A stretch of DNA of 51,703 bases from Nitrospirota bacterium (GCA_004321925.1 SCQH01000062.1:1-51703), one strand, 5' to 3'. Shown: positions 1,487 through 10,224, counted from the first letter of the stretch. Notes: a model not told the origin generated them from the letters alone. Translations and numbers: made by a program.

Positions 1487-3169
1487 CTAAGCCGGCCTCG
1501 CCTTCTCCAGCACTGCCCGGGCCTCCCGAGCAGCCAGGATGCCATGGTACTGGGCCTCCTCAAAGAGAGAAATGCCGCTCATATCCGAATGGGCGAAGAA
1601 TATCCTGCCCAGCGGCCTGAGGGCCTCCTGCCTCGCCCTGCCCCATATGAATTTCGGGACAGGCCTCACCATGGCATGTCCCCAGAGCCAGACGTTCACC
1701 TCTTCAATGCCCTTTTCGATGCCGGGATGGAACCGGGAAAGGTCCCTAATGATCATGTCAGCCCATGCGTCAAAGGTCATCGTGACTGCCCTCTGCCTTT
1801 CGGCGGCAGGGTCTCCTGCAGTAAGCGGGTAATAGTAGGTCAGAACGGTCTTTGACTGGTGCAGTGCAACATCCTGATGGTTTGCCACAACATACCCGAG
1901 AGAATCGTTCCCATAAAATACATTGTCCCACGACAGGGGCGCCCCGTTACCTTCGGGGACTGCGTTCACCACCACATTTGCGACCATCCAGGGGGCATAC
2001 CCGAAACTGCCGGCATAGGCAGGCGGACTCTCCCTGAGGTCTTTGATGCTTCTGAGCGCCGTGAACCGGGGGGCCGCATAGATCACCGCCCGCGCCAGTA
2101 TGCGTTTTGCAACCCCGGACCGCGGATCAAGGTAGTCCACAGCAGTCTTATCGCCGATATTTTGGATATTCAGTACACAGGCATTGCAGCGGATATGCTC
2201 TGACATATTTTCGGCCATCTTCCTTACGATCCACCCGTTGCCCTCAGGCCAGGTGACGACGGCATGCGGCTCCGCATTGCCAGCGCTGCCTGAGCGGCCT
2301 GCAAAATAATGGATCCCGGCCCAGGCCGAGACATCCTCCATGACGCAGCCGTAATCGTCCCGGCAGCAGTAGTTGACATACCAGCGCAGATATTTGGAGT
2401 CAAGGCCGTTGTCGGTCAGAAATTGTGCCATGCTTATCTCGTCATATTTCAGAAACCGCCTGTCCCGGGAACTGAGCTCCATGGGGATGACAAAGGCCCG
2501 CCTGCCGTCCGTTCCCCGCGCCTTCCTGAGATCATCCATCATGCCGAAAAAAACCTGGTACTGCCGCTTGTCCTCAGGCGTTGCCCCGAACTGCGGCACG
2601 AGCCCCTCCTGCCAGCGGTCATGGATGAAGAGCCGCTCCTGCGGGTCTGCGCAGAGATAATACTCATTATAAAGAGGCAGGCCTTTGCTGTTATACCCCT
2701 CGATGATACCGAGTTCCTCGAACAGCTCCCTCACAAAGACCGCCTCAACTCCGGGGAGCGGCACATAATGCGCGCCCAGGGGATAGGGAGAGACCTTATG
2801 GACGGCGTATGCGGAGTTCCCCCCGGTCCTGTCTTCGAGCTCCAGCATCAGAAAGTCGCGTATGCCCTTCTTTGCGAGGTCCCGGGCTGCCGAGAGGCCG
2901 GCTATCCCGCTGCCCACAATTACGATGCCGGTCTCCTCGGTCTCCGTCGGGGTAATTCCCTCTCCCTGCAGCAGCATATGCCCGGCCTTGCGGTTGGAGC
3001 CGATGATCGAGCCGGCCACTCTTTTATTTCCGGCCGGCCGTGAATCTTTACATGAAATGCCCATGCCTGCTGCAGCGGCAGCGAGGCATGCGCCCTGTAT
3101 CAGGAACGACCGGCGGCTCAGCCCGGCCTTGGAAGGATCAGTGGGTGTACCGGGACCACTCTTCTTCAA
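1487..3169 (-). CDS. Tat-exported FAD-dependent amine-oxidase-like oxidoreductase
   Basis: 560 residues. A twin-arginine signal (SRRSFLIQ, Arg19-Arg20) is followed by an Ala-rich hydrophobic stretch and a lipobox-like GISC (Cys40), so the enzyme is probably exported folded and perhaps lipid-anchored. A Rossmann dinucleotide motif (GSGIAG, residues 86-91) followed by an acidic-ended strand and RTGGNS is typical of FAD flavoproteins of the monoamine/polyamine oxidase and phytoene desaturase superfamily. The start overlaps the end of the spermidine-synthase-like gene by 32 bases, so the two are translationally linked. That context suggests a polyamine or related amine as substrate (inference). 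It is the last gene of the SPFH/DUF4178 operon. Confidence 0.85.
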   Translation of the reverse strand: MKKSGPGTPTDPSKAGLSRRSFLIQGACLAAAAAGMGISCKDSRPAGNKRVAGSIIGSNRKAGHMLLQGEGITPTETEETGIVIVGSGIAGLSAARDLAKKGIRDFLMLELEDRTGGNSAYAVHKVSPYPLGAHYVPLPGVEAVFVRELFEELGIIEGYNSKGLPLYNEYYLCADPQERLFIHDRWQEGLVPQFGATPEDKRQYQVFFGMMDDLRKARGTDGRRAFVIPMELSSRDRRFLKYDEISMAQFLTDNGLDSKYLRWYVNYCCRDDYGCVMEDVSAWAGIHYFAGRSGSAGNAEPHAVVTWPEGNGWIVRKMAENMSEHIRCNACVLNIQNIGDKTAVDYLDPRSGVAKRILARAVIYAAPRFTALRSIKDLRESPPAYAGSFGYAPWMVANVVVNAVPEGNGAPLSWDNVFYGNDSLGYVVANHQDVALHQSKTVLTYYYPLTAGDPAAERQRAVTMTFDAWADMIIRDLSRFHPGIEKGIEEVNVWLWGHAMVRPVPKFIWGRARQEALRPLGRIFFAHSDMSGISLFEEAQYHGILAAREARAVLEKARPA

Positions 3170-4634
3170 AATATCTCACCAGCACCTGGTTATGGAGCCT
3201 GTTGACCTCTGTCTCGACCGGGCCCATGTCTGCCGGAAATTCGGTCATCGTCTGCGCCACAGCAGGTGTCACGAACCTGAGGTCGGGCTTGAACGTCTCG
3301 GGCATTTTGAACGGCGTTTTTTTGGCGATCACGTAACCCCACTCCCCGAACGACGGGAGATAGGTATGATAGGGCGTTGTCTTGAGCCCCAGAGACTGCA
3401 GGGTAGCCACGACACACCAGAACGACCTCCGTGCGACATAAGGAGACGTGCTCTGGATGACTATGACCCCGTCATCCTTTAAGACGCGCTGCACGAGCCG
3501 GTAGAAGGTCGTGGTATATAATTTCCCGACCGAATAGGTCGAGGGGTCAGGGAAGTCGATCACGATGAAGTCATATTTCCCTGTCTCTCCCTTGAGCCAG
3601 ATAAAGGCATCGGCATTGATGATATGCACCTTCGGCGACTTCAGCGCCCCACCATTAAGCCCCACCAGGGTCTCGTGGCTCCTGAAAAGCTTTGTCACCT
3701 CTGCATCGAGGTCCACCAGGGTCACCGATGAGACCGAAGCGTACTTCAGCACCTCCCTGACCGCCAGGCCGTCCCCGCCGCCCAGCACAAGAACGTCCTT
3801 CGGTTCCCTGAGCGACTGCAGTCCGGGGTGTATCAGGGCCTCGTGATAGCGGTATTCGTCCCTGGAGTTGAACTGCAGGTTGCCGTTGAGGAAGAGCTGC
3901 AGACTGTCCCCGTCCCTGGTCAGTACGATCCGCTGATACGGGCTCGTCTTTGCATAGATGATGTTCCCCTTATAGCCCAGGGTCTCGGCAAAATGCAGTA
4001 TCCAGCCGGAATAGACCATCCCTGCGGTAAGAAATACAAGCACCAGGCCACCCGCAGCCGCATGCAGCCGGGCATACAGCACCTCACGCCTGAACAGGTG
4101 CAGGGCCCAGAGGGCCACCAGCGCATTGATTATCCCGAAGAGGAAGGAGGCCCTGATCAGGCCGAGGTACGGGACGAGCACCAGAGGGAAAAGAAGGGAG
4201 GCAAAAAGGGCCCCGATATAGTCAAAGGTGAAGACCTTTGAGACCAGGTCCCTGAACTCGAAGCGGTTCTTCAGGACCCGCATGATGAGCGGTATCTCGA
4301 GCCCGACAAGGGTCCCGGTTATGCCGATGAGGGAGTAAAGGATCGACCGGAAATGGACAGCGACCTCGAACAGCATGAACAGGACCGCTGCGGCAGACCC
4401 TCCCACAAGCCCGATGAGCAGCTCGACCTGGATGAAGACGGTGATGACATTCCTGACGATATACCGCGAAAGGTACGAGCCGAGGCCCATGGCAGAAAGA
4501 TAGACGCCGATGATTATCGAGAACTGGGTGACCGAGTCTCCCAGAAGGTAACTTGCCAGCGCCCCTGCGGTCAGCTCATAGATAAGGCCGCAGGTGGAGA
4601 TTACAAAAACAGACAGCAGCAGGGCATAGGCCAT
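3138..4634 (-). CDS. Membrane-fused spermidine synthase-like aminopropyltransferase
   Basis: 498 residues. The first ~215 residues hold about seven hydrophobic helices; the rest is a spermidine/spermine synthase domain with the SAM-type nucleotide motif VLVLGGGDGLAVREVLKY, an acidic strand end (VTLVDLD) and the catalytic-Asp region VIDFPDPS. The soluble family transfers aminopropyl groups from decarboxylated SAM to putrescine; the membrane-fused branch is known from genomes but its substrate is poorly defined. ATG start at 4634 lies 17 bases after the DUF350 gene. No SAM decarboxylase gene is in the window. The gene is the fifth of six in a compact minus-strand operon, which argues for a role in membrane or envelope polyamine modification rather than bulk spermidine synthesis (inference). 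Confidence 0.88.
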   Translation of the reverse strand: MAYALLLSVFVISTCGLIYELTAGALASYLLGDSVTQFSIIIGVYLSAMGLGSYLSRYIVRNVITVFIQVELLIGLVGGSAAAVLFMLFEVAVHFRSILYSLIGITGTLVGLEIPLIMRVLKNRFEFRDLVSKVFTFDYIGALFASLLFPLVLVPYLGLIRASFLFGIINALVALWALHLFRREVLYARLHAAAGGLVLVFLTAGMVYSGWILHFAETLGYKGNIIYAKTSPYQRIVLTRDGDSLQLFLNGNLQFNSRDEYRYHEALIHPGLQSLREPKDVLVLGGGDGLAVREVLKYASVSSVTLVDLDAEVTKLFRSHETLVGLNGGALKSPKVHIINADAFIWLKGETGKYDFIVIDFPDPSTYSVGKLYTTTFYRLVQRVLKDDGVIVIQSTSPYVARRSFWCVVATLQSLGLKTTPYHTYLPSFGEWGYVIAKKTPFKMPETFKPDLRFVTPAVAQTMTEFPADMGPVETEVNRLHNQVLVRYFEEEWSRYTH

Positions 4635-4651
4635 AGAACTCCGCCCGGGAG

Positions 4652-4870
4652 TTACCCGTGGATGGACATCGCGATTATCAGGGAAAGGCCGATGATCATG
4701 GCGGCGATCACGATCGCAGCGGCAACGTTCTGTTTCTCGAGTATCTCGCAGGAGAGATCGCCGGGCGTGATCTTGTCAAATATATAAAATGCCAGGCCGA
4801 AGAGCGCAAGACCGAAAAAAGAAAAAATGATCGAAGAGACAACGTCCTTAAGATGAATGAGATTTTCCAT
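4652..4870 (-). CDS. DUF350 family small membrane protein
   Basis: 72 residues with two hydrophobic helices (about 10-32 and 48-68) separated by a short loop with ITPGDL. This matches the DUF350 family (YjfL-like), whose members usually contain two or four such helices. ATG 4870 is preceded by GGGAGG at good distance. DUF350 proteins are commonly found beside spermidine synthase-like, DUF4178 and PspA/SPFH genes; that neighbourhood is present here. Molecular role is unknown. Confidence 0.8.
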   Translation of the reverse strand: MENLIHLKDVVSSIIFSFFGLALFGLAFYIFDKITPGDLSCEILEKQNVAAAIVIAAMIIGLSLIIAMSIHG

Positions 4871-4894
4871 GATTCCTCCCTGTTTTTTTCTGTG

Positions 4895-5035
4895 CTACTT
4901 ATGATAGCTGCTATGTCCGAACATACCGCCGCCCAGGCGTCCGCCCTGCATGATGTTCCCGACCGAATACCCGTTCAACCCTGCTGAAACGAACAGGGCG
5001 CCGATGATAATACCGTATAAAAGGTAAAGCTTCAT
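4895..5035 (-). CDS. 46-residue Gly-rich membrane peptide inside the SPFH/DUF4178 operon
   Basis: A short ORF beginning ATG 5035, only two bases after the stop of the DUF4178 gene, with a GAGGAGG ribosome site inside the end of that gene. It encodes a Lys-started N-terminal hydrophobic helix (MKLYLLYGIIIGALFVSAG) and a soluble tail with GGRLGGGMFG and a His-rich end. It stops at 4895, 24 bases before the DUF350 start. Position, ribosome site and composition all support a real gene. It could be a small partner subunit of the DUF4178 or DUF350 membrane proteins (inference). Confidence 0.7.
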   Translation of the reverse strand: MKLYLLYGIIIGALFVSAGLNGYSVGNIMQGGRLGGGMFGHSSYHK

Positions 5036-5037
5036 TT

Positions 5038-6960
5038 CTATGCTTCCTCCTCATCGTCAGATTCGCTGTCCGTGTCCGAGGACAGGCTGCTCTCGGCCTT
5101 TCGCTGCGCCTCGAACTTACCGCTCTTCAGGCAGATGCAGAGCGGGTATATTAACAGCAGAATAAGCCCCACGATATAATTGGTCCAGGTGGCTATGCCC
5201 CGGCGCAGCGATATGGTGAAGCTTTTTTCACCCTGTTTTTTCGGGTCGGCCGAGGGCTGGATCACGAGGTGATACCGCCCGCCCTTGACGCCGGCGAGGA
5301 CGTAACTCGAATCCTGGCTCCCCTCGGTCCAGGACTCACCGCCGTCCGTGCCGGAATAGTGTTCGACGGTCTGCTGAAAGCCAAGGCTTTTGCCGCTCTT
5401 TTCGTCAACAAGATCGATGCCGGCCTCCATCCAGTCGTTCTGGAGATCTGTTTTTATGGTAGCAGAGAGGTTCCCTGTCCCCCCGGGTATATCGAATGAA
5501 GGGGTGACATAGGACGGCGCCTTCTCCGTGGTGTTGAAGACATAGTGTGAAGTAAAGACCTCCTTGTTCTTGGCCGTAAACGCAAAATAGAGCTGAAACA
5601 GGGTAAGCAGCGCGGCAAAGGCCCAGAAAGACCTACCAACACGGCGGAGCAAAAGGCTGCGAGGATTCGGCTGGTTTGGGGCAACCCCCACCTTCTGCGG
5701 CATCTCCTCCCGGATCAGGAATGCCTCGGCCACCTCTTCCGGCTCTATATATTTTCCGAGGGACCAGGTGATCTCGGACTTCTCACCCTCTGAAGAAAGC
5801 ATTTCGGGGGGGCATATGTAATCGGCCACGGATACGGTCTCCCCGATCCTGACCCTCCAGTAAAACTCGCCGATCACATAGAGTACCTTCGCCTTTCCTT
5901 CGAGGAAAAGCTGAAAATCTCTGCCTTCCCATTTCCGGTGGACTCTCAGGTAAACCTCAGGAGCGGTTCGTATCATCTCGACGAAGTTCCAATGGCCATT
6001 GTAGGTCGTCAGCCACCTGAAGCCTTTCGTGGGATGGAAGAGGAGGTATTCGTCCCACGGGTAGGTACCCTCCTCATCAGAACGGCGCATGAACCCGGTG
6101 ACCTCCCATTTTGTCCCGAAGAGCGTCCCCTTGCTCCCAATCGGTATCAAAGGCTTGATCTTCATCTTCTGTTCGGCCTTGTCGAGGATCGCAAGGGACT
6201 GGTTGGTCGTATCGATGATCGAACCGCAGTAACCGCAGGCGGCAGATGCCGTGTGGCCCGGAGTGAGCATCGAAAAAGGCCCCCCGCAGGAGGGGCATTT
6301 CAGGAGCCCGGAGGCCCGCACTTTCTTCAGCTCCGTTGGCAGGTCACGCAGGTTGGTAAATTTAAAGGAGTCGAAGTCCAGATATTTCCCGCTGAAGAGA
6401 CTCACCCCGTCCGTATCAGAGTATTCGATGCCTGCGAACTCTCCTGAGGTATTGCTCAGGTCAACGCTGGTCGTCTTTCTGCCCTTGGGGGCCCGGAAAG
6501 GCAGTTCGCCCTCGCTCCCGATACAGACAGCAGCCTTGATGTCGTCAACCGTGAATTTCTGCGGAAGTCCGAGGTCATATTCCGAGCCGACCTTGAGGGC
6601 CTTAAGGGCCGGGACCTTCTTTGTCTCAGCGACCTCAAAGCTGAGCATGAAAAAGCCCATGGCCTCGGCCAGCCAGCCCTGCGTGCCGTCATCGAAAGAA
6701 AGGAACCACTCGTTCCAGTATCCCTCGCTCCAGCCTATCTTCAGGCGGCCGACCACCCCGAAACTCTTTCCCTTGAACACTCCCCGGCTTCCGATCTTCA
6801 GAGGCGAGACATCGTCCGGGAGCTGGGCCATCTGGCCGAGGGCCTCGAGGTCCATATCGTGCCGGACGATCATTGACTGGCAGTGGTCGCAGACCGAAAA
6901 AACCGATACGCTCGACCTGAAAACTACCTCTGCTCCGCAGGATGGACAGTTCGCCTTCAT
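5038..6960 (-). CDS. DUF4178 protein with two zinc ribbons and C-terminal membrane segments
   Basis: 640 residues. A zinc ribbon (Cys5, Cys8, Cys24, Cys27) leads into a DUF4178 domain (about 54-200), then a second ribbon (Cys222, Cys225, Cys242, Cys245) and a second DUF4178 domain (about 272-410). A hydrophobic helix near residue 445, a predicted beta-rich non-cytoplasmic section, and a second helix near residue 605 follow; the C-terminus is acidic and Ser-rich. Thus zinc ribbons face the cytoplasm and a ~130-residue domain probably faces the periplasm. DUF4178 is known from polyamine/envelope-stress clusters, function unresolved. It begins 11 bases after the SPFH gene, consistent with co-expression. 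The internal duplication of ribbon plus DUF4178 is notable. Confidence 0.85.
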   Translation of the reverse strand: MKANCPSCGAEVVFRSSVSVFSVCDHCQSMIVRHDMDLEALGQMAQLPDDVSPLKIGSRGVFKGKSFGVVGRLKIGWSEGYWNEWFLSFDDGTQGWLAEAMGFFMLSFEVAETKKVPALKALKVGSEYDLGLPQKFTVDDIKAAVCIGSEGELPFRAPKGRKTTSVDLSNTSGEFAGIEYSDTDGVSLFSGKYLDFDSFKFTNLRDLPTELKKVRASGLLKCPSCGGPFSMLTPGHTASAACGYCGSIIDTTNQSLAILDKAEQKMKIKPLIPIGSKGTLFGTKWEVTGFMRRSDEEGTYPWDEYLLFHPTKGFRWLTTYNGHWNFVEMIRTAPEVYLRVHRKWEGRDFQLFLEGKAKVLYVIGEFYWRVRIGETVSVADYICPPEMLSSEGEKSEITWSLGKYIEPEEVAEAFLIREEMPQKVGVAPNQPNPRSLLLRRVGRSFWAFAALLTLFQLYFAFTAKNKEVFTSHYVFNTTEKAPSYVTPSFDIPGGTGNLSATIKTDLQNDWMEAGIDLVDEKSGKSLGFQQTVEHYSGTDGGESWTEGSQDSSYVLAGVKGGRYHLVIQPSADPKKQGEKSFTISLRRGIATWTNYIVGLILLLIYPLCICLKSGKFEAQRKAESSLSSDTDSESDDEEEA

Positions 6961-6971
6961 GAAATGCCTGC

Positions 6972-8063
6972 TCAGCTCCCCGGCAGCGGCGGCGGCACGC
7001 TGTCGAACAGGGCCGCAACGTCAGGCACCTGGCCCGCGGCAGTCCATTGCCCCATGCCGGCCTTCCAGACAAGCGTCTCTCTGCTGATCTCCCCTGCCAC
7101 TGCTTTCTTCCTGAGCGTGTCCATATCGTACGGCCCTTCCTGCTTGCCGCTGATCGCCACAAAATAGCCCGGAAGAGGCGGGGGCGTCTGGGAAGGCTCG
7201 CCAGGACGGCCGGACATGGCCTGTCCCATCTGGTTGGCCATGGCAAAGCCCATCCCCATGCCGACACCGGCAGCGGCCGTACCGCCAGGATTTTCTGCTG
7301 CAGCCGAGATGGATGCCGCGGTCTCGTATTGAGTAAAGGCATTGAGGTTGCCGACAGCCTTTATCGCGCCTGCCTTGTCGATTGCCCGCTCAACCTCCTC
7401 AGGCAGGCCTATGTCCTGCACCTGGACCTCGGTCAGTTCAAGCCCGAAGCCGCCGAAGCTGGGGGCGATACGGTCCTTCAGCATCTGGCCGAGGTCAACG
7501 ACCCTGCTCTCAAGCTCTATGACCGGGATGCCTGTCTCGGGCAGGACCTCTTTGATCCGCAGCCCGATCTTCCCCCTGAGGTTCTCGGTTATCGACTCGG
7601 TCGTAAAATTGCCGTCGGTGCCGACGATCTCCTTGATAAAGGTGGCAGGTTCCTTCACGCGTATGGAATAGATCCCGAAGGAGGTGACCCTGACCGGCCC
7701 GAACTCCTTGTCACGCATGGTCACCGGGCCGGGAGTGCCCCACTTGAGGTTGGTGAACTGCCGGGTGCTGCAGAAATAGACCTCGGCCTTGAACGGGCTG
7801 TGAAAGCCGTATTTCCAGCCCTGCAACGTGGTCAGGATAGGAAGGTTCTTGGTCTCCAGGGTGTAGGTCCCCGGCTTGAATACATCCGCGAGCTGGCCTT
7901 CGTTGACAAAGACCGCCTGCTGTCCCTCCCGGACGACCAGCTTGGCCTGATACTTTATTTCGTTCCCCATCCGGTCGAACCTGCGCACCAGTGTATTGTC
8001 GGTGTCATCGATCCATTCGACAATATCGATAAACTCGCCGCGAATCTTGTCAAAAAGTCCCAT
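6972..8063 (-). CDS. SPFH-domain protein with C-terminal GYF_2 domain (virion core protein/YdjI-like)
   Basis: 363 residues. I chose ATG 8063 because AAGGAGG stands 8 bases upstream and the protein then starts MGLFDKIRGEFIDIVEW, the usual start of this family; a longer in-frame extension would run across the promoter. Residues 1 to about 270 form the SPFH/band-7-like core found in the YdjI-type group; an Ala/Gly/Met-rich linker follows; residues about 305-355 (YFVAISGKQEGPYDMDTLR... ending in W-x-x-A) form a GYF_2/DUF4339 module. SPFH proteins scaffold membrane microdomains. First gene of the operon, with a good promoter upstream. Confidence 0.87.
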   Translation of the reverse strand: MGLFDKIRGEFIDIVEWIDDTDNTLVRRFDRMGNEIKYQAKLVVREGQQAVFVNEGQLADVFKPGTYTLETKNLPILTTLQGWKYGFHSPFKAEVYFCSTRQFTNLKWGTPGPVTMRDKEFGPVRVTSFGIYSIRVKEPATFIKEIVGTDGNFTTESITENLRGKIGLRIKEVLPETGIPVIELESRVVDLGQMLKDRIAPSFGGFGLELTEVQVQDIGLPEEVERAIDKAGAIKAVGNLNAFTQYETAASISAAAENPGGTAAAGVGMGMGFAMANQMGQAMSGRPGEPSQTPPPLPGYFVAISGKQEGPYDMDTLRKKAVAGEISRETLVWKAGMGQWTAAGQVPDVAALFDSVPPPLPGS

Positions 8064-8138: not shown

Positions 8139-8168
8139 AATATACCTAATAGGAGGACTGCAAGTCAA
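8139..8168 (-). promoter_or_regulatory. Sigma-70-type promoter of the SPFH/DUF4178 operon
   Basis: On the minus strand TTGACT (8168-8163), an 18-base spacer and TATATT (8144-8139). Expected start near 8132, giving a leader of about 70 bases before ATG 8063. The gap to dxs is 232 bases, so this and the dxs promoter are divergent. Confidence 0.55.
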
Positions 8169-8295: not shown

Positions 8296-10224
8296 ATGAT
8301 AGAAAAGATCGGTTCACCCCAGGACCTGAAGTCTCTGACGCCGGAGGAGATGAAGACCCTCGCAGAAGAATTGCGCCGGATGATCATAGAGCGGGTATCG
8401 ATCAACGGAGGCCATCTTTCCTCGAACCTGGGCGTGGTCGAACTCACGATCGCCCTGCATTATGTCTTTAATTCACCCTATGACAAGATCATCTGGGATG
8501 TCGGCCACCAGTCCTATCCGCATAAGCTGCTGACCGGCAGGCAGAAGGATTTCCCGTCCCTGCGCAAGCATGGCGGACTCTCGGGCTTCCCGAAGATCAG
8601 TGAGAGCCCCCACGACATCTTCGGCGTCGGCCACAGCTCCACCTCGATATCGGCGGCCCTCGGCATCGCTGCAGCACGGGACCTCATAAAGCAGCAGGGT
8701 GGTCCTGATGAGACCGGAAGCGTCATTGCGGTGATCGGCGACGGAGCCCTGACCTCAGGGCTCGCCCTGGAGGGGCTGAACCAGGCCGGACACCTGGGGA
8801 AGAACCTCATCGTGATCCTCAACGACAACGAGATGTCGATATCCGAGAACGTCGGGGCAATGTCGAATTACCTTACCCGGGTGCTGACCGGGGCCTTCTA
8901 CAACAAGTTCAAGAAAGAGACAAAGGCCCTGATCGGGGGCATCCCCAGGATCGGCGGCACGGTCACGAAACTGGCCGAAAAAGCGGAGGGCAGCCTGAAG
9001 GGCTTCTTCCTGCCCGGCGGTCTATTCGAGGACCTCGGGTTCAATTACATCGGGCCGGTCGACGGCCATGACACCGGCCTGCTGATCGAGACCCTCGTCA
9101 GCCTGAAAGATATGACCGAACCGACGCTTATGCATATCGTCACGCAGAAGGGCAAGGGGTATAAATATTCTGAGGAAGACCCCTGCATCTACCACGGGAC
9201 CGGCCCCTTCGACAGCGATGTCGGACTGAACAGCACGAACTGCCCCGTGCCCTCCGGCGTTGAGGCACCGGTATCATACAGCGACCTCTTCGGGGAGGCC
9301 CTTGCCGGGCTTGCCGCCGCGGACAACAGGATCGTTGCGATCACGGCCGCCATGAAGGAGGGCACAGGGCTGAGCGGTTTTGCAGAGAGATTCCCCGACC
9401 GTTTTTTCGATGTGGGCATTGCAGAACCCCATGCCGCCACCTTTGCAGCAGGCCTCGCCACGCAGGGGCTCAGGCCCGTTGTCGCGATCTACTCCACCTT
9501 CCTGCAGAGGGCCTATGATGAGATCCTCCACGACGTCTGCCTCCAGAACCTGCCGGTCCTTTTTGCCGTTGACCGGGGAGGTATCGTCGGCGAGGACGGC
9601 CCGACCCACCAGGGCCTCTTCGACCTGTCGTTCCTGAGGCATATCCCGGACCTTCTGCTGATGGCGCCGAAGGACGGCAACGAGCTGAAGGCGATGCTCC
9701 AGTTCGGCCTCACGCTCACGGGACCGGCCGCTATACGGTATCCGCGCGGGCGGGCCATCACCCTTGCCGAATGCCCGCCGGGCAGCCTCTCCCCCGGCAA
9801 GGCGGAGGTCCTGCGTGAAGGGGACGATCTCTGTATCCTTGCCGTCGGCAGTTCGGTCGCCCCTTCGTTAAAGGCGGCGGAGATGCTGGCTCAACAGGGC
9901 ATCAGGGCTGCGGTCATCAATGCCCGTTTTGTGAAGCCGATCGATGAAGAACTGATCCTCGAATTCGCCCGGAGGACAGGGAAGCTCCTCACCGTCGAAG
10001 AGAACATCCTTGCCGGCGGCTTTGGTTCGGCAGTCCTGGAATGCATCAGCAGAAGCGGCCTGTCCGGCGTCTCAATCAAAATGCTCGGCATCGGCGACCA
10101 GTTCGTCGAGCACGGGACACAGAAATTCCTGCGCAATAAGTATGGCCTCGATGAAGAAGGGATCTGCCGGGCTGCCACGGCTTTGACCTCGGCCATGCCC
10201 CTTCCTTTGCCTCTGCCCCGCTAA
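8296..10224 (+). CDS. dxs: 1-deoxy-D-xylulose-5-phosphate synthase
   Basis: 642 residues, normal for Dxs. It condenses pyruvate with glyceraldehyde 3-phosphate to DXP, the first step of the MEP isoprenoid pathway and a precursor of thiamine and pyridoxal. Visible marks: the N-terminal NGGHLSSNLGVVELTIALH segment, IIWDVGHQSYPHK, the thiamine diphosphate motif GDGALTSGLALEGLNQ ... NDNEMSIS, the pyrimidine domain with a RFFDVGIAEPHA region (catalytic Glu), DRGGIVGEDGPTHQG, and the C-terminal transketolase domain. Start ATG 8296 with GAGAAAGG about 11 bases upstream. Diverges from the SPFH operon and stands alone: no other MEP gene is adjacent. Confidence 0.97.
   Translation: MIEKIGSPQDLKSLTPEEMKTLAEELRRMIIERVSINGGHLSSNLGVVELTIALHYVFNSPYDKIIWDVGHQSYPHKLLTGRQKDFPSLRKHGGLSGFPKISESPHDIFGVGHSSTSISAALGIAAARDLIKQQGGPDETGSVIAVIGDGALTSGLALEGLNQAGHLGKNLIVILNDNEMSISENVGAMSNYLTRVLTGAFYNKFKKETKALIGGIPRIGGTVTKLAEKAEGSLKGFFLPGGLFEDLGFNYIGPVDGHDTGLLIETLVSLKDMTEPTLMHIVTQKGKGYKYSEEDPCIYHGTGPFDSDVGLNSTNCPVPSGVEAPVSYSDLFGEALAGLAAADNRIVAITAAMKEGTGLSGFAERFPDRFFDVGIAEPHAATFAAGLATQGLRPVVAIYSTFLQRAYDEILHDVCLQNLPVLFAVDRGGIVGEDGPTHQGLFDLSFLRHIPDLLLMAPKDGNELKAMLQFGLTLTGPAAIRYPRGRAITLAECPPGSLSPGKAEVLREGDDLCILAVGSSVAPSLKAAEMLAQQGIRAAVINARFVKPIDEELILEFARRTGKLLTVEENILAGGFGSAVLECISRSGLSGVSIKMLGIGDQFVEHGTQKFLRNKYGLDEEGICRAATALTSAMPLPLPLPR

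Follow-up and report, generated by a model that had tools for sequence, protein, structure and literature searches.

A conserved Nitrospirota operon that joins a membrane-fused SpeE-like protein, a lysine-ended peptide and a Tat-type flavoprotein: a possible system for modifying a protein C-terminus

Results

Organization of the operon

The window, a 51,703-nucleotide stretch of DNA from a Nitrospirota bacterium, holds a complete set of six open reading frames, all on the minus strand, between positions 1487 and 8063. In the order of transcription, these encode an SPFH protein of 363 residues (6972–8063; Pfam Band_7_1, 339 bits) with a C-terminal GYF_2 domain (67 bits) and no membrane helix noted, a Pfam-assigned DUF4178 protein of 640 residues (5038–6960), a 46-residue bitopic peptide ending in -YHK with a predicted N-in/C-out orientation (4895–5035), a DUF350 protein of 72 residues (4652–4870), a SpeE-like protein (3138–4634) and a 560-residue FAD oxidoreductase with a TTG start and a Tat signal (1487–3169). 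The genes are separated by gaps of 11, 2, 24 and 17 bases, and the last two, SpeE-like and FAD, overlap by 32 bases; the layout given in a first-pass annotation of this DNA agrees exactly with the coordinates of the reading frames. The same annotation placed the operon behind a TTGACT-N18-TATATT promoter. Such a site is indeed present at 8168–8139 on the minus strand, but with four promoter-like sites in the region against 3.1 ± 1.7 in shuffled sequence its assignment as a promoter has no statistical support.

Outside the operon lie dxs, on the plus strand from position 8296, and a plus-strand frame of 246 residues at 692–1432 that is convergent with the operon and matches no Pfam or NCBIfam family. 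At the window edge, a 178-residue reading frame (55–591) carries collagen-like Gly-X-Y repeats (GPMGPQG...). A profile search of the whole host genome with PF04012 gave no match, which bears out the earlier remark that PspA is missing.

Several of the proteins vary in their domain composition. The C-terminal tail of the SPFH protein is swapped between clades and may be GYF_2, SHOCT or zinc ribbons (L037, L084, L083, L048), with SHOCT found in Novosphingobium, Burkholderia and the relatives of L032. The DUF4178 protein consists of two zinc ribbons and two DUF4178 copies followed by a C-terminal beta-rich stretch, which lies between two predicted C-terminal membrane segments; in most other phyla DUF4178 is encoded by two separate genes, in contrast to the single fused gene of the window. 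The DUF350 protein, with its two membrane helices, corresponds to half of the Pfam model (PF03994, 51 bits, profile positions 4–66 of 133).

Conservation of the gene order

Strong homologues of the FAD protein are present in 12 of the 396 genomes of the window's phylum, its own included, and others are carried by one proteobacterial and one Chlorobiales metagenome-assembled genome (MAG); in Gemmatirosa, Novosphingobium and Burkholderia the homologous gene lies on a plasmid or second replicon. The order SPFH-DUF4178-peptide-DUF350-SpeE-FAD is kept in the window's phylum, Novosphingobium, Gemmatirosa and both MAGs, although several of the neighbourhood contigs end within the operon and no SPFH gene was found alongside the Chlorobiales genes. 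In Burkholderia the set is kept in a rearranged form, with a divergent SPFH/DUF4178/peptide arm. Two genomes of the order, both from one genus, have a split operon, in which either the FAD gene (G144) or the peptide gene (G317, away from DUF350-SpeE-FAD) is located apart from the rest. The gene order, that of the FAD gene included, is thus conserved well outside the host genome and in several phyla, and its recurrence in unrelated phyla excludes an operon by chance.

The proposed link to polyamines is strengthened by the position of speD, the gene of AdoMet decarboxylase, which adjoins the operon in relatives: it lies directly downstream of the FAD gene in Novosphingobium and the Chlorobiales MAG, 0.9 kb beyond it in the proteobacterial MAG and next to the divergent arm in Burkholderia. 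In the host genome speD is on another contig. Its mere co-occurrence with the operon is uninformative, as speD is found in 131 of 149 genomes.

The SpeE homologues that lack a FAD partner come from operons of another class, with a DUF350 protein of eight transmembrane helices and, where checked, with PspA and CesT/Tir. In the SpeE tree the two classes separate with 99% support. The FAD class is a single group (59%), with Tritonibacter, where both SPFH and FAD are missing, placed beside it. The existence of FAD-less operons means that not every such system includes an oxidation step.

A lysine-ended membrane peptide in every readable operon

The peptide profile matches all eight operon-bearing genomes among 149 of the order, plus one weak extra match, and alignment A3 ends in HK in 11 of 11 sequences. 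For the more distant operons, the slot between DUF4178 and DUF350 was examined and small reading frames were read by eye where sequence search missed them; by this means the peptide was found in Chlorobiales, Gemmatirosa and Burkholderia, where a phmmer miss had wrongly suggested its absence. In 27 of 27 SpeE-membrane operons with a readable slot, the slot product is a small membrane-anchored protein with a C-terminal lysine; at one locus (L046) the peptide is located on another contig. The C-terminal lysine holds for both the SPFH/FAD and the PspA class and irrespective of the presence of PspA. Some of these lineages are kin, and the count is therefore given as conservation of the lysine and not as a probability.

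The conservation is confined to the very end of the chain. All 13 representative tails, when anchored at the right, end in lysine, preceded in 12 by glycine or histidine, and the positions upstream are variable. The lysine-ended partner in the FAD-less and PspA-class operons is either a longer bitopic protein (...GGGPGAGK) or a 240-residue lipoprotein (...GGGMGFGK), and none of the lysine-ended proteins matches a Pfam family above the cut-off. As the partners have either a positive N-terminal flank or a lipoprotein signature, their tails are predicted to lie outside. In the SpeE, DUF350, FAD, SPFH and DUF4178 proteins the last residue varies. The invariant lysine, encoded in the window at 4898–4900 (minus strand; K46) and left without interpretation in the first-pass annotation, points to the peptide as an acceptor rather than a free small molecule, although it could also be a binding signal.

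Three loci (L120, L121 and L093) encode lipoproteins of 240–247 residues that end in GFGK and lie upstream of an eight-helix DUF350 protein and SpeE. The one from L120 has no Pfam match, and the three may correspond to the 'Ctha_1186' lipoprotein of PMC11237479.

The SpeE-like protein and its predicted topology

The SpeE-like protein scores 659 bits against PRK03612, above the cut-off of 472, matches Pfam Spermine_synth, and is recognized by PDB profiles of thermospermine and spermidine synthases. Its aminopropyltransferase domain (residues 222–498, 3138–3971) retains the GGGDG and DxPDP motifs: Gly285, Gly287, Asp288, Gly289, Asp360, Asp363 and Pro364 are invariant in alignment A2, with Gly286 nearly so, and all the GGGDG/DxxDP positions (285–289, 360, 363 and 364) are kept in alignment A5. 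The domain is accordingly predicted from its motifs to transfer an aminopropyl group to an amine. The score places the protein with the MFS-SpdSyn fusions (NF002956/PRK03612, NF037959), which as a family are named polyamine aminopropyltransferases, a name that does not prove the acceptor of the window protein.

Two observations bear on that acceptor. First, the host genome has a separate stand-alone aminopropyltransferase, a spermidine synthase of 283 residues (PF01564, 216 bits), which corrects an earlier search (P0005) that had found no second enzyme of this kind. Together with speD, it would allow ordinary spermidine synthesis without need of the operon and would leave the operon enzyme spare for another acceptor. 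Second, MFS-SpdSyn fusions reportedly fail to complement a speE mutant and are said to make no spermidine and probably to use another acceptor (Li et al. 2019). Membrane-fused SpeE proteins are widespread.

In the AlphaFold model, the membrane domain (residues 1–221, 3972–4634) comprises seven transmembrane helices (2–31, 34–56, 63–89, 95–121, 127–157, 159–180 and 188–207), followed by a short helix and then the catalytic domain. Lysine and arginine residues average 9.3 in the loops after helices 2, 4 and 6 against 0.95 in the others, a bias seen in 19 of 19 homologues. From hydropathy, the model and the positive-inside rule, seven helices with this charge pattern place the catalytic domain outside, predicted to be on the same side of the membrane as the oxidase. 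The first-pass annotation, which had the synthase inside and the oxidase outside, appears mistaken in this respect. If, on the other hand, the short seventh helix did not cross the membrane, the SpeE domain would be inside.

Such a cytoplasmic domain could still use the peptide lysine as its acceptor, with the modification made before export of the tail and only the FAD step taking place outside. This arrangement would solve the problem of the donor, as both SpeD and decarboxylated AdoMet are in the cytoplasm, and the sister ATP-grasp ligases discussed below use ATP and are presumably cytoplasmic as well. It is nonetheless distinctly improbable, as it conflicts with the helix count and the charge bias of all 19 homologues and with the export-like N-terminus of a split homologue from the same genome. 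In the latter (L095, contig C95, 1966–5877), a SpdH-like Tat flavoprotein lies beside a split MFS/SpdSyn pair of a 306-residue SpeE-like protein and a separate membrane part of 258 residues, and the SpeE-like protein begins with a signal-like helix, the equivalent of helix 7.

The L095 locus is a second pairing of a Tat-FAD and a SpeE-like protein in the host genome. A possible fusion of the SpeE and FAD genes, suggested by open frames of 802–1049 residues in two relatives, was dismissed as merely open sequence overlapping SpeE.

The Tat-exported flavoprotein

The TTG start of the FAD gene is the only ATG, GTG or TTG codon ahead of the Tat motif. The twin arginine (Arg19 and Arg20, codons at 3110–3115, minus strand) is invariant in 17 of 17 homologues, and the host genome encodes TatC (238 bits). 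The protein matches PF01593 (Amino_oxidase) with 48 bits across 443 positions and keeps the GxGxxG FAD site. Among the NCBIfam profiles it scores 74 bits with PigB, compared to 22 with CrtD and 21 with CrtI, the latter matches being N-terminal only. The nearest folds to its AlphaFold model (pLDDT 75.7, pTM 0.80) are those of putrescine oxidase (best, Z 29.0), monoamine oxidases and SpdH; phytoene desaturase (Z 26.5) and protoporphyrinogen oxidase follow just 2.5–3 Z units below the best folds, a modest margin that makes the fold alone weak evidence for the class. The profiles thus lead to rejection of a carotenoid desaturase, with the fold mildly concurring, and the protein groups with the amine oxidases. 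Both outcomes that the first-pass annotation had named as counting against its proposal, a desaturase grouping and a lack of conservation elsewhere, are therefore absent.

The search for the catalytic residues of the amine oxidases gave a different result. The lysine that lies near the flavin N5 in amine oxidases, retained in SpdH (7d9j), is replaced by Asn398 (codon at 1976–1978, minus strand), with VATKV in SpdH aligned to VANV in the window protein. The asparagine is found in 17 of 17 homologues and in both Tat-type paralogues of the same genome. By fold and lineage the FAD protein thus resembles the amine oxidases, and its active site is altered. Given the substitution, the enzyme may or may not oxidise amines.

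Among known proteins, SpdH (7d9f–7d9j) and PigB have the same flavin fold, and SpdH further resembles the window protein in its Tat-like N-terminus and a W-[GS]-H C-terminal motif. Apart from retaining the lysine, SpdH is distant in sequence: the profile match has an E-value of about 1e-7, and a phmmer search with the window protein alone does not match it. The same genome encodes a PigB-like Tat flavoprotein of 586 residues (L094, contig C101, 2950–4710; 104 bits to NF053556), which shares the replacement of the amine-oxidase Lys by Asn, and the flavoprotein of L095 is a SpdH-like, Tat-type protein of 623 residues (E-value 1e-49 to 7d9j).

The resemblance to putrescine oxidase, monoamine oxidases and spermidine dehydrogenase, along with the intact aminopropyltransferase motifs, would fit a small-molecule cycle close to that of the first-pass annotation. 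In it, SpeE would produce a free polyamine of an unusual kind, which the FAD enzyme would oxidise in the periplasm; the two would thereby adjust the polyamine level locally, with the SPFH/DUF4178 complex as its sensor and the peptide as a structural subunit. Such a cycle seems unlikely in view of the separate spermidine synthase, the reported failure of MFS-SpdSyn fusions to complement a speE mutant and the loss of the amine-oxidase lysine from the FAD protein, and it leaves the invariant C-terminal lysine of the peptide without explanation.

Comparison with peptide-spermidine ligase operons

In E. coli, YjfC and YgiC carry the annotation of peptide-spermidine ligase, an activity reported in PMID 36745518 as cited in PMC12568646. 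The DUF1190 lipoproteins encoded beside such ligases, in E. coli and as homologues in Rhizobium, Loktanella and P. syringae, end in -GG in five of five cases (L123, 10388–11026; L124, 3745–4416; L126, 2406–2999; L127, 4247–4834; L129, 2199–2966), and this ending is a possible acceptor tail. The E. coli YjfIJKLMC operon, like that of the window, combines DUF350 with polyamine chemistry, and it includes a PspA-like protein and an exported DUF1190 lipoprotein with a Gly/Ser-rich tail. YjfIJKLMC and YgiBC differ from the window in having an ATP-grasp ligase instead of an aminopropyltransferase and a lipoprotein ending in -GG instead of lysine; the ATP-grasp family matches none of the six window proteins. 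A carboxyl tail for the ligase and an amine tail for the aminopropyltransferase would be the chemistry expected of the two enzymes. Aminopropylation at the peptide level has a precedent in the maturation of microcin C.

The contrast between the two tails also bears on the possibility that a lipid or some other component of the envelope is the acceptor and that the peptide lysine is a docking tail to SpeE or to the beta domain of the DUF4178 protein. A seven-helix domain fused to the aminopropyltransferase would suit a membrane acceptor, and constant C-termini are frequently docking signals. However, this explanation gives no reason for lysine specifically, nor for the -GG in the ligase operons, and appears rather improbable.

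Discussion

Related operons have already been published: Ravi et al. 2024 (PMC11237479) described PspA-class operons with spermine synthase, DUF350 and DUF4178, in which, as in the window, SpeE is fused to a seven-helix domain. The window differs from these in its two-helix DUF350 protein, fused DUF4178 gene, GYF_2 instead of SHOCT, speD outside the operon and a genome devoid of PspA. The operon is hence not a PSP operon, PspA being absent from both operon and genome, and neither does it fit the Band-7/SHOCT polyamine variant of the same authors, given its GYF_2 tail and lack of an in-operon AdoMet decarboxylase. A word search of the main text of PMC11237479 finds no mention of lysine or of a lysine-ended partner. 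New, as far as could be found, are the invariably lysine-ended partner shared by both classes, the contrast of this ending to -GG, the placing of the SpeE domain outside by prediction, and the exchange of the amine-oxidase lysine for Asn398.

The explanation tentatively preferred here, at somewhat short of an even chance, is that the operon encodes a machine in which SpeE, on the outer face of the membrane, aminopropylates the C-terminal lysine of the peptide and the FAD enzyme then oxidises the product. It builds on features read directly from the sequence, namely the gene order, the protein families, the Tat and aminopropyltransferase motifs and the constancy of the lysine, and on the predicted location of both SpeE domain and lysine outside. 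In such a machine, SpeD, encoded elsewhere in the host genome and within the operon in relatives, would make the donor, decarboxylated AdoMet, and the SPFH and DUF4178 proteins would serve as the platform or scaffold of an inner-membrane complex. DUF350 and/or the seven-helix domain may carry the donor across the membrane, after which the SpeE-membrane fusion would attach one or more aminopropyl groups to the bitopic peptide, at its C-terminal lysine outside. Finally, in the SPFH class, the Tat-exported SpdH/PigB-like flavoenzyme would act on the modified amine and oxidise it. The supply of the donor outside the cytoplasm is the main weakness of this scheme, since decarboxylated AdoMet is cytosolic and an outside aminopropyltransferase would depend on an exporter for it.

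In a broader sense, and with somewhat more doubt, the two kinds of operon may represent a general bacterial system in which a small membrane-anchored protein is polyaminated at its exposed C-terminus by either of two chemistries legible from the tail: a -GG ending would go with an ATP-grasp ligase that attaches a polyamine, and a -(G/H)K ending with an outside membrane SpeE that adds aminopropyl groups, one branch of which would include a Tat-exported flavin oxidation step. If true, this would supply the acceptor that is missing for the MFS-SpdSyn fusions, as well as a candidate for that of YgiC/YjfC, and the contrast of the C-terminal lysine with -GG would reduce both acceptor questions to one mass-spectrometry experiment. 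It would also imply that protein at the surface of bacterial cells is modified with polyamine groups, in connection with the SPFH and PspA membrane-stress platforms.
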